A DNA stretch of 64,000 nt from an uncultured Prevotellaceae bacterium (GTDB taxonomy: Bacteria > Bacteroidota > Bacteroidia > Bacteroidales > Bacteroidaceae): NCBI GenBank assembly GCA_945833925.1, contig CAMAFX010000005.1, positions 1 to 64,000 on the forward strand. The letters are read 5' to 3'. Made by a program: the position numbers and the translations under genes. Positions 7,267-51,622 of the stretch are shown in pieces. Positions within the stretch are counted from its first letter, which is position 1; each line of letters begins with the position of its first letter. The notes below the pieces were generated by a model. The model saw only the letters and a list, made by a program, of their open reading frames with translations, was not told the DNA's origin and ran no database searches.

Positions 7267-7734
7267 ATGGAAAAAGTCATTATTTCTTGTTACGAAGACT
7301 TCTTGCCATACCTTGGCAAAGAGATTGGCACGAGTGATTATATACAGATTGATCAGAACCGAATCAACCTGTTTGCAGATGCCACACTTGACCACCAGTG
7401 GATTCATGTAGACGTAGAGAAAGCCAAGGCAGAAAGTCCGTTCGGTCAGACTATTGCACACGGCTACCTGACAATGTCTTTGCTGCCAGCCATGTGGAAT
7501 CAAATCATCGAGGTACGCAACTTGGAGCGCCAGATGAACTATGGTATGGACAAGATGAAGTTTGCACAGCCTGTGCTCTCAGGACAGAGTGTACGCATGG
7601 TTACCCACTTGCACGAAATCGCGAATCTTCGCGGCGCAATAAAGACTACAATAAAGTTCTCTATCGAAGTCAAGGAAACAGGCAAGAAGACACTGGAAGG
7701 TCTTGCCACATTCATTTATTATTTCAAGAAATAA
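7267..7734 (+). CDS. MaoC-family (R)-specific enoyl-CoA hydratase-like protein
   Basis: NLFADATLDHQWIHVDVEKAKAESPFGQTIAHGYLTMSLLPAM is the MaoC hot-dog fold signature. Confidence 0.92.
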   Translation: MEKVIISCYEDFLPYLGKEIGTSDYIQIDQNRINLFADATLDHQWIHVDVEKAKAESPFGQTIAHGYLTMSLLPAMWNQIIEVRNLERQMNYGMDKMKFAQPVLSGQSVRMVTHLHEIANLRGAIKTTIKFSIEVKETGKKTLEGLATFIYYFKK

Positions 7735-7857: not shown

Positions 7858-7887
7858 TCTGTAAAATTTCAAATTTAGAATCTTCAG

Positions 7888-7973
7888 CCTCCCAAAGATT
7901 AACTTGAACCTCCACAGAGATTCACCTCAGCCTCCACAGAGATTCGCCTCAGCCTCCCAAGGATTATCTGAAG
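7888..7973. repeat. Four tandem 21-22 bp units (cctccacagagattcacctcag-like)
   Basis: Units at 7888-7908, 7909-7930, 7931-7952, 7953-7973; the middle two differ by one base. Confidence 0.9.
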
Positions 7974-15958: not shown

Positions 15959-16012
15959 GAACTGAATCAAGAACTGACAATCTTGCCACCCCAAACGACA
16001 AGTATACCGACT

Positions 16013-16101
16013 GAAAAAAATTTTTTCTCGCACCGGAGAAAATTTTTTCTCGCACCAGAAAAAAAATTTTTTCGCAGCGTAAAAAGAATTTTTCTGTAGC
16101 G
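16013..16101. repeat. About four tandem 22-23 bp A-tract/T-tract units (gaaaaaaattttttctcgcacc)
   Basis: Units 16013-16035, 16036-16057, 16058-16080, 16081-~16101. Confidence 0.85.
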
Positions 16102-16189
16102 AAAAACAATGAAGATATGTTGTTCGTTTCTCAGACGCCACCAAGTCGCTTTACAAATCACTACAATATAACTTGCAACTATACATCAA

Positions 16190-25821: not shown

Positions 25822-26802
25822 ATGTTATCAGGTATATCCAGAATACTAAGCCAGAAGGCAAGCATCTTCATCATACTCACGGCAATTGTCACGTTCTTCA
25901 TACCCAACCTGTTTGGATGGGTGCAGGGAGTGACACAAACCATCATACTGGGCATCATCATGCTCACCATGGGACTCACACTGACACCGAACGACCTGAA
26001 ATTGCTTGCACAACGACCCCTTGACATCTTCATTGGCAGCCTTGCACAGTTCACCATCATGCCATTGGTGGCATACACATTGACATCAGTCTTCTCCATG
26101 ATTCCGGCTTTCGCTCCCTACAGCACAGCTATGACGATAGGAATCATACTCGTAGGATGTTGTCCAGGAGGCGTCAGCAGCAACATCATGTCGTTCCTGT
26201 GCGGAGGCGACGTGGCATACAGTGTGGGCATGACATGTGCCAGTACTATCATGGCTCCCATTCTTACCCCACTGCTGGTGCTGCTTCTCGCAGGAGAAAA
26301 GGTTGACGTGGATGCTGTCAGCATGTTCCAACAGATACTCATTGTCACCATCATCCCAATTGCTATCGGTTTCCTGCTCAACATGAAGTTAGGTCACAAA
26401 CCGGTATTCAGCAAGATACAGTCATGTATGCCTGGCGTATCTGTCATTTCGCTTGCCTGCATTGTAGGTGGCGTAGTCTATACTGTTCACGACCCCCTCG
26501 TAGAGAACGGAATGTTCCTGTTCATCATAACATTCTGTATGGTATTCTGCCACAACACCATCGGCTACCTCTTAGGCTATACGGTGGGAACTATCTTCAA
26601 CTTCAACAAGGCTAAGAAGAGGACAATAAGCATTGAGGTTGGAATGCAGAATGCTGGTCTGGGAACAAATCTTGCTATGATATTCTTCGTAGCAAACAAT
26701 CCCATGAGCGTTGTACCATGTGCCATCTCGTGTGCATGGCACAGCATCAGCGGCACCATCCTTGCCAACATCTTCTCTGCCTACGACAACAGGAAGAAAT
26801 AA
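25822..26802 (+). CDS. Bile acid:sodium symporter (BASS/SBF) family transporter
   Basis: GLTLTPNDLKLLAQRPLDIFIGSLAQFTIMPLVAYTL...GCCPGGVSSNIMSFLCGGDVAYSVGMT. Confidence 0.93.
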   Translation: MLSGISRILSQKASIFIILTAIVTFFIPNLFGWVQGVTQTIILGIIMLTMGLTLTPNDLKLLAQRPLDIFIGSLAQFTIMPLVAYTLTSVFSMIPAFAPYSTAMTIGIILVGCCPGGVSSNIMSFLCGGDVAYSVGMTCASTIMAPILTPLLVLLLAGEKVDVDAVSMFQQILIVTIIPIAIGFLLNMKLGHKPVFSKIQSCMPGVSVISLACIVGGVVYTVHDPLVENGMFLFIITFCMVFCHNTIGYLLGYTVGTIFNFNKAKKRTISIEVGMQNAGLGTNLAMIFFVANNPMSVVPCAISCAWHSISGTILANIFSAYDNRKK

Positions 26803-26823
26803 GTTTACTTATGCTATTAAGAA

Positions 26824-26977
26824 GCTGCTACTGCTTCAAAGAAAAGCTGCTACTGCTTCAAAGAAAAGCTGCTACTGCTTCAAGGAAAAGCTGCTACTGC
26901 TTCAAGGAAAAGCTGCTACTGCTTCAAGGAAAAGCTGCTACTGCTTCAAAGAAAAGCTGCTACTGCTTTCAGATGAA
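26824..26977 (+). repeat. 22-bp tandem array GCTGCTACTGCTTCAA(A/G)GAAAA, six full copies plus a seventh entering a hairpin
   Basis: Unit starts at 26824, 26846, 26868, 26890, 26912, 26934, 26956. Confidence 0.97.
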
Positions 26978-26997
26978 GCAGTAGCAGCTTTTTTATA
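26956..26997 (+). terminator. Intrinsic terminator whose 5' arm is the last 22-bp repeat copy
   Basis: gctgctactgctttc agat gaagcagtagcagc tttttt. Confidence 0.85.
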
Positions 26998-27022: not shown

Positions 27023-27296
27023 TTATCTTTTATTAAATACCCAGGATTCGCCATTTGGCGCAATAAAAGCAACCTTTTTCTTGTCAATATTTTCTATTTT
27101 AAAAAGAAAACTACCATCTTCGTCAGAAAGGGTACACAGATCATCCACTATTTCCATTAACATGTTTTCTAATTGAGACAACATGTTCTGATAATCATCA
27201 TCACTTTCTATCTCATCATTTACCTGTGATTGCCTGAGCATTCATGTTACTGCAGCAAAATGAGATAAACAACAAGAACATTAAAAGCTTTTTCAT
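27023..27296 (-). pseudogene. Small secreted protein split by a one-base frame offset between signal peptide and body
   Basis: ATG 27296 frame gives MKKLLMFLLFISFCCSNMNAQAITGK*; the body (27023-27241) MLRQSQVNDEIESDDDYQNMLSQLENML...ESWVFNKR is in another frame. Confidence 0.55.
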
Positions 27297-27342: not shown

Positions 27343-28143
27343 TTATAAAGACTGAACCCACACGCTATAGTTTGTGAGAATAGCCATGCCAAACTGTTGT
27401 GGATTACTAATGGCCTTTGTTATGCCATCAATCATTTTTGCATACTGTGGTTTGTCACATAGTTTCTTATAAAAGCGCAGGTCATCGTCAGTCATCACTC
27501 CTTCCGATGCATTCAGCATCAATATCGGCAATGATTCTGACATATAGTTTTCAACCTTATTAAGGATATCATCTGACACTTTACCAGCCAACTGTGCCTT
27601 TAGTAAAGGCGCAATCATTTTGTCAACACCGTTTAACTGATAGTATGCATCAAAAAGTGTACGACGCTCTGCAGAACATTTGGCTTCTGTCTTTTGGTAT
27701 TTTCCTGTAGTAACTATTGATAAAATGTCTTTCTGGATGATAGCCATCATATCAAGCATGTATTCTTCAGAAGAAAGAATCTGACTATGTTGGGTCGCAA
27801 GTTTACCTTCGGGCGTTTCAAGCATATCAGACAGTTCATTTATCTCATCTTCTGTTACATCCTGTTCGCTTATATAAGGTGATAATGCAAACGCCATATC
27901 TTTTGTAAGGCGTTCTTTGAGATATTTGTCTGCCATTGTTTCGGCAGTATATCCGCTTGGAATGCTCATTTGTGTCATTGAAGGTAACTGAACCAGTGTT
28001 TGTCTCATTTGCGAATTCATTGACTCTGCTTGTCCATTAGCTAAAATATAGCGTTCAATTGCACTTGTCACTGAAGTCTGTGCTGACACAGCTATGCTGC
28101 ACAGCATAAGTGCAACAGCAGTTAATATACTTTTAATCTTCAT
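27343..28143 (-). CDS. Secreted hypothetical protein (DUF2059-like)
   Basis: Signal peptide MKIKSILTAVALMLCSIAVSAQ and an all-helical body; weak family resemblance only. Confidence 0.55.
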   Translation of the reverse strand: MKIKSILTAVALMLCSIAVSAQTSVTSAIERYILANGQAESMNSQMRQTLVQLPSMTQMSIPSGYTAETMADKYLKERLTKDMAFALSPYISEQDVTEDEINELSDMLETPEGKLATQHSQILSSEEYMLDMMAIIQKDILSIVTTGKYQKTEAKCSAERRTLFDAYYQLNGVDKMIAPLLKAQLAGKVSDDILNKVENYMSESLPILMLNASEGVMTDDDLRFYKKLCDKPQYAKMIDGITKAISNPQQFGMAILTNYSVWVQSL

Positions 28144-38162: not shown

Positions 38163-38204
38163 CTTTCTTGTTTTTTTTAGAGGTTAACAAGCACTCTTGT
38201 GTTT

Positions 38205-38314
38205 ATTGATTATTATTAAATTATTATTGAAATATCATTGAATCTTTATGGAACTACTATTGAAAGATTATAGAAATATTATAGAACTATGATGGAAACT
38301 ACTTGAAACTGACA
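38205..38314. repeat. About ten degenerate 11-bp tandem units (ATNGAAANATT-like)
   Basis: attgaaatatc/attgaatcttt/atggaactact/attgaaagatt/atagaaatatt/atagaactatg/atggaaactact etc. Confidence 0.75.
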
Positions 38315-51490: not shown

Positions 51491-51503
51491 TTTATGTTGA
51501 ATT

Positions 51504-51600
51504 GATGACTCGATATCACGAAAATTCGATGTCTCAATATCACGAAAAATCGATATCTCAAAATCACGATAAAATCGATGACTCGATAAATTTTAATTTT
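51504..51600. repeat. About four tandem 24-25 bp degenerate units between GH89 and the acyltransferase
   Basis: gatgactcgatatcacgaaaattc / gatgtctcaatatcacgaaaaatc / gatatctcaaaatcacgataaaatc / gatgactcgataaatttta...; followed by aactttt x3. Confidence 0.85.
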
Positions 51601-51622
51601 TAACTTTTAACTTTTAACTTAC

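Follow-up and report, generated by a model that had tools for sequence, protein, structure and literature searches.

The seven-unit array that lies behind a transporter gene in the window (the whole 64,000-nucleotide stretch analysed, from an uncultured Prevotellaceae bacterium) is a member of a family of 22-bp repeats that is specific to the species and scattered between its genes. Our preferred reading, which we hold to be fairly probable, is that the hairpin in which this array ends is an ordinary intrinsic terminator made from the last units of a repeat family that operates at the DNA level, and that the additional arms provided by the other units are probably incidental.

The array and hairpin at the window locus

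The features of the locus, in window positions, are:

25822-26802, + strand: upstream gene for a transporter of the sodium/bile-acid symporter family (BASS/SBF; Pfam PF01758, E 1.8e-38)
26822-26975, + strand: seven direct 22-bp units, each a 15-bp core (AAGCTGCTACTGCTT) with a 7-bp spacer, by direct reading
26947-26955, - strand: A-rich stretch before the hairpin, forming a T-rich tail (GCTTTTCTTTG) on the - strand
26954-26968, + strand: core of unit 7, the 5' arm of the putative terminator hairpin (folding gives a 15-bp stem, a 7-nt loop and -25.3 kcal/mol)
26969-26975, + strand: hairpin loop TCAGATG, which is the spacer of unit 7
26976-26990, + strand: eighth, inverted core (AAGCAGTAGCAGCTT), the 3' arm, in 22-bp register
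26989-26994, + strand: T6 run, the putative terminator tail, consisting of the inverted core's last two bases and TTTT at 26991-26994
27023-27241, - strand: small convergent ORF of 72 aa, an uncertain gene, no Pfam match
27343-28143, - strand: convergent ORF of 266 aa, no Pfam match

Direct reading of the window places the starts of the AAGCTGCTACTGCTT cores at 26822, 26844, 26866, 26888, 26910, 26932 and 26954, with spacers that read CAAAGAA in units 1, 2 and 6, CAAGGAA in units 3 to 5, and TCAGATG in unit 7. TRF likewise reports a period of 22 (6.7 copies, 98% matches, score 273), and the original prediction of a seven-copy, 22-bp array is thereby upheld, albeit with a start at 26822, two bases before the 26824 first given. 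Two points missing from that prediction are that the inverted core stays in register, beginning exactly 22 bp after the seventh direct core, and that the family extends genome-wide.

The claim that the last tandem copy serves as the 5' arm of a terminator-like hairpin is supported by the folding result listed above. Like a canonical rho-independent terminator, the structure has a GC-rich stem, a short loop and a T-run, and lies 3' of a stop codon; it differs in that its 5' arm comes from the seventh and last tandem copy, and in that its arms recur at other loci. The stable stem-loop stands directly before T6, with a co-oriented stop codon upstream: that of the BASS gene lies 19 bp from the array start and about 150 bp from the hairpin. 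Counting against the terminator reading, the hairpin is missing from the output of a simple terminator scan. A search of Rfam 15 gave sub-threshold matches only, with no family's gathering threshold reached, and the stability of the 201-nt region is not unusual relative to dinucleotide shuffles (z = -1.35). On the - strand, the tail of the hairpin reads TTCTTTGAAG, and TTCTTT follows the hairpin on that strand. Because an A-run precedes it, the hairpin probably also terminates transcripts arriving from the convergent side, where the 72-aa ORF may be a real small gene.

As originally claimed, the single 3' arm is complementary to every copy: all seven upstream cores pair with it fully over 15 nt, and most over about 18 nt. 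Folding the RNA with each arm in turn had been suggested as a check, and in constrained folds that pair the 3' arm with each of units 1-7, the total energies for the whole array are between -57.3 and -62.3 kcal/mol, a spread of about 5 kcal/mol. Mutually exclusive pairings, as first proposed, are therefore possible, yet kinetics would favour the closest arm, given that unit 7 encloses a loop of 7 nt versus 29-139 nt for the other units. We accordingly envisage that, as RNA polymerase leaves, unit 7 would engage the 3' arm, and that the six earlier copies would form transcribed 3' UTR, probably incidental to termination; against this nearest-arm reading, the 3' arm pairs thermodynamically as well with the other units as with unit 7.

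A repeat family dispersed through the source genome

The window's own genome (G000) is a draft of 2.5 Mb in 117 contigs, and copy numbers within its arrays may be affected by draft assembly. Using a 16-base core as query together with a pattern search, we found clustered matches on many contigs; genome-wide counts given here combine pattern searches with about 630 kb of sampled stretches. Arrays of the window core occur at about 28 places, two of which, at the ends of contigs C56 and C96, may be one, and comprise of the order of a hundred core units, almost all clustered in tandem. The exact two-unit pattern occurs 93 times, versus 0 for the reversed control. Amplification at a single locus, or a slippage scar, as first offered among the explanations, is not supported, since arrays of the same core stand at about 28 places.

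When loci of the source genome are compared, identity is 81% in the inner 7 bp of the core and 36% in the 7-bp spacer. Among the units collected G6 and C10 of the core are invariant, while the AAGC and GCTT ends are conserved by construction, because collection required units to start with AAGC and end with GCTT. Core relatives (AAGCAGGTACTGCTT and AAGCTGCAGCAGCTT) exist beside the main core, and the common form is therefore AAGCWG-NNN-CWGCTT. Both core orientations are found in the arrays with register kept, and at one locus (L151) a single array shifts from AAGCTGCTACTGCTT units to AAGCCGTAGCGGAACTTT units with the register intact.

Recurrence of the hairpin and gene context

Six arrays of the source genome consist of a direct array, an inverted last unit and a T-rich tail: the window array and its counterparts on contigs C1, C3, C51, C65 and C97 (the five non-window loci being L135, L138, L341, L343 and L345). 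The distances from the co-oriented stop codon to the array start in these six are 13, 17, 19, 26, 31 and 34 bp, and a bare hairpin without an array stands 62 bp past a stop codon on contig C55 (L348). Direct copies before the hairpin range from 1 to 7 between loci. An array followed by an inverted unit and a T-run thus amounts to a natural series of putative terminators with 0 to 6 spare arms, well suited to asking whether competing arms affect termination. Many other arrays of the family have no hairpin or T-run, and consequently termination cannot account for the family as a whole.

Core arrays of the source genome lie preferentially between convergent genes (14 of 19 classifiable arrays, versus 27% expected from gap lengths; binomial P about 3e-5, arrays with common flanks not being independent) and none of the 19 lies in a divergent gap (21% expected); the nearest stop codon is a median of 26 bp away. 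The same tendency, in weaker form, is present in a related species (G138), where 9 of 20 arrays are in convergent and 2 of 20 in divergent gaps, with a median of 15 bp; the convergent tendency was not seen in the few core arrays sampled from a third species (G079). Gene context was assigned with a home-made codon-score gene caller. The context statistics draw on about 630 kb of the source genome, in stretches picked partly for known arrays, and array density is overestimated as a result; this choice has less effect on the comparisons of context and of period.

Conservation and a possible origin of the arrays

Selection on an RNA hairpin should favour G-U over A-C pairs on the transcribed strand. 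However, on the sense strand of the related species (G138) the variable pair is G-T in 12 cases and A-C in 24, with no G-U bias, which speaks for conservation at the DNA level rather than the RNA level; in the source genome T-T and A-A, neither of which can pair, predominate at the corresponding pair. We saw no sign of RNA-level selection outside the end hairpins, and apart from these the conservation looks like that expected of DNA-level recognition or copying.

We suggest the following origin. The unit consists of an A/T-rich spacer of 7 bp and a 15-bp core whose ends are dyad-like (AAGCWG-NNN-CWGCTT), and copies would be gained as whole units at the DNA level. Because the AAGC and GCTT ends are mutual inverted repeats, template switching at core ends could reverse the inner bases without displacing them, and slippage from one core end to another would lengthen an array by exactly 22 bp; both the in-register flips and the hybrid cores fit such an origin. 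Inversion of the outermost unit, seen here and at at least five other loci, gives a core-spacer-inverted core hairpin with a 15-bp stem, a 7-nt loop and a T-run, which behind a stop codon would act as an intrinsic terminator for the upstream gene. Slippage alone does not explain the 22-bp step of unrelated sequences. Two turns of underwound DNA, at about 11 bp per turn, span 22 bp, and our guess is that two such turns together with a bound, putative protein offer a natural reason for the step.

The 22-bp step across sequences and species

The 22-bp step is common to unrelated sequence families in the source genome and in several species of the genus. Across 464 kb sampled from the source genome there are 22 intergenic arrays of period 22, and at most 2 at every other period between 15 and 43; in 391 kb of the related species (G138) there are 35, the runner-up being period 21 with 8. 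Together with the absence of reversed-control matches, this excess indicates that the window array is not a product of chance. Unrelated arrays that share the period in the source genome include AAATCACGCTACGTGATTTTTG-like, AAAAATTTTTTTTCCGCTACGG-like and GAAAAAAAATTTTTTCCGCTGC-like sequences, and two more lie in the window:

7886-7968, no strand assigned: intergenic 22-bp-period array of unrelated sequence (TCAACCTCCACAGAGATTAACC), placed in the same class by period only
16002-16107, no strand assigned: intergenic array of 22-bp period and unrelated sequence, each unit containing a 16-bp A/T palindrome (AGAAAAAATTTTTTCT); placed in the same class by period only

The palindromicity of 22-bp consensus units is modestly above that of shuffles (means of 13.0 in the source genome and 11.8 in the related species, versus 11.1). 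Sequence is the usual basis on which tandem repeats are described. In this one genus many different sequences keep to a single period, an indication of a testable constraint, physical or enzymatic in nature. A wider proposal, to which we give somewhat less than even credence, is that the genus carries a hitherto undescribed class of DNA arrays between genes, conserved in their 22-bp step (two turns of underwound DNA) and not in their sequence, that these are made or maintained by a dedicated machinery for binding or copying, which works in 22-bp increments and is able to flip a unit in register, and that terminators arise from flipped end units.

The generic exact pattern AAGC-N7-GCTT-N7-AAGC-N7-GCTT was matched in 8 of the 139 genomes of the genus, and its control had no match. 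Outside the genus it was found in 3 of 366 sampled genomes of the family, once in each; the reversed control also gave three, and the only telling match is consequently that in a sister-genus genome (G349), whose core is the same as in G138. Sister genera yielded two period-22 arrays in 353 kb, one of them fetched because of its pattern match, and none turned up in 258 kb sampled across nine other families of the order. Among the matches listed from public genomes, nearly all of those to the three-unit AAGC form come from Bacteroidales assemblies, many of rumen or colon origin, and viral contigs gave 0 matches to this three-unit pattern.

Several further arrays were observed in the course of these comparisons. 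The sister-genus array (L319, contig C89 of G349, about 7299-7441) is a single array with the AAGCGCGAGGCGCTT core of the related species, possibly owing to horizontal transfer or misbinning, and a 22-bp array of AAGCCGCGGGCGCTTTGACGAG occurs outside Bacteroidales in a Gammaproteobacteria MAG (L245, 1964-2073). The window itself holds an A/T-rich array of period 11 at 38203-38303 (also read as 22 or 33), 11 being half of the 22-bp step, as well as, at 51500-51620, a 24-bp array with a TAACTTT heptamer array after it; 7-bp arrays are also common in two other genomes (G138 and G001). A palindromic array of GAAATATATTTC with a 21-bp step and AAGCCTT-like spacers occurs at ten places in the 391 kb of G138 (L112-L130, e.g. 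L118, 11090-11143), and several of these arrays adjoin 22-bp arrays of differing sequence, forming a composite intergenic element.

Alternative explanations and known repeat systems

Among the alternatives, the most probable is that the arrays are mainly helically phased sites for a putative DNA-binding protein of nucleoid-associated, insulator or domain-boundary type, with one dyad core per 22 bp, or two underwound turns, and the terminator as a by-product. The constancy of the step across unrelated families in several species, retention of the AAGCWG and CWGCTT arms around a variable centre and spacer, the register held where sequence changes (L151) and the lack of maintained sense-strand pairing are all consistent with this explanation; however, we identified no protein for the arrays, the presence of several distinct cores in one genome is not easily reconciled with a single protein, and the strong tendency to lie just past stop codons, like the convergent bias, suggests a role at transcript ends or promoter avoidance, leaving it possible but rather doubtful. 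The original prediction also raised a tunable or decoy role for the RNA, in which seven 5' arms vie for one 3' arm, with the number of copies determining how efficiently transcripts are terminated or titrating a partner. While all arms are indeed complementary, with alternative folds within about 5 kcal/mol and a natural series of 1 to 7 direct copies in the genome, such a role is not borne out by the unremarkable folding z-score, the kinetic advantage expected of the nearest arm, the lack of sense-strand covariation or G-U bias in a relative (G138) or the many arrays without hairpin or T-run. Moreover, no comparable array stands behind the BASS gene in the seven related species with enough flank (L002-L008), and we regard a multi-arm device as distinctly unlikely.

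In the literature on 22-bp intergenic tandem repeats in Prevotella and Bacteroidales we found no close parallel except BrickBuilt, a minisatellite/MITE of Porphyromonas gingivalis with intergenic 23-nt tandem repeats at 19 dispersed loci in 1 to 22.8 copies (PMC4596501). Its units are partly conserved and partly variable, at most loci it has a leader and tail with small inverted-repeat ends, and it shows promoter activity (PMC4596501). BrickBuilt is the closest system overall, being from the same order, intergenic, of nearly equal step and likewise divided into conserved and variable unit parts. It is distinguished by its 23-nt unit, the step being exactly 22 in arrays of the source genome; here, furthermore, some arrays end in an inverted unit and T-run, and unrelated sequences have the same step. 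A minisatellite-bearing, non-autonomous element of this kind, spread by a transposase acting in trans, could explain tandem repeats dispersed between genes and the flanks common within two subgroups of arrays, yet in 300-bp flank BLAST the other arrays, that of the window included, share no flanks, and we saw neither leader and tail nor terminal inverted repeats outside the array at the window locus; we therefore consider it unlikely. For a terminator built from a dispersed repeat, the closest parallel is instead Neisseria, in which inverted pairs of DNA uptake sequences double as rho-independent terminators (PMC2397512). An uptake-type signal would fit a conserved, species-specific core whose inverted pairs give terminators, but is very unlikely here, as uptake sequences are single, scattered and far more numerous (hundreds to thousands), whereas these cores are almost all clustered in fixed-step tandem arrays of the order of a hundred units. 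REP/BIME elements are short palindromic repeats outside genes, with a transcript-end role among those proposed (PMC3733652). Mobilisation of such repeats by RAYT (Y1 transposase) would suit short, palindromic, intergenic units that are often in 3' regions. REPs, though, are palindromes of 20-40 bp, as opposed to a fixed 22-bp tandem step, and we found no RAYT link and no RAYT gene flanked by cores: the only two Y1_Tnp matches are borderline (22-23 bits), and contig C2, which carries both, has no core array listed. We have accordingly rejected this extremely improbable candidate. Least credible of all is an assembly artefact, which the draft state of the genome (117 contigs) and arrays at the ends of contigs C42, C56, C66 and C96 might suggest; spacers differ between loci, and the same 22-bp architecture occurs in independent assemblies of other species. 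The arrays do matter for genome assembly, because some sit at or near contig ends.

In the first of the two subgroups with common flanks, three loci (L042, L044 and L046, on contigs C42, C54 and C66) differ in unit number and core orientation, providing a natural series of copy-number changes and flips. The second subgroup, comprising L051, L054, L055, L059, L060 and L062 (contigs C10, C32, C32, C57, C68 and C107) and in part L052 (C23), is a dispersed, noncoding, MITE-like element, in which behind a four-unit core array comes a conserved stretch that has a hairpin (ATGGCGTGCC...GGCACGCCAT-like), as well as a second inverted repeat.
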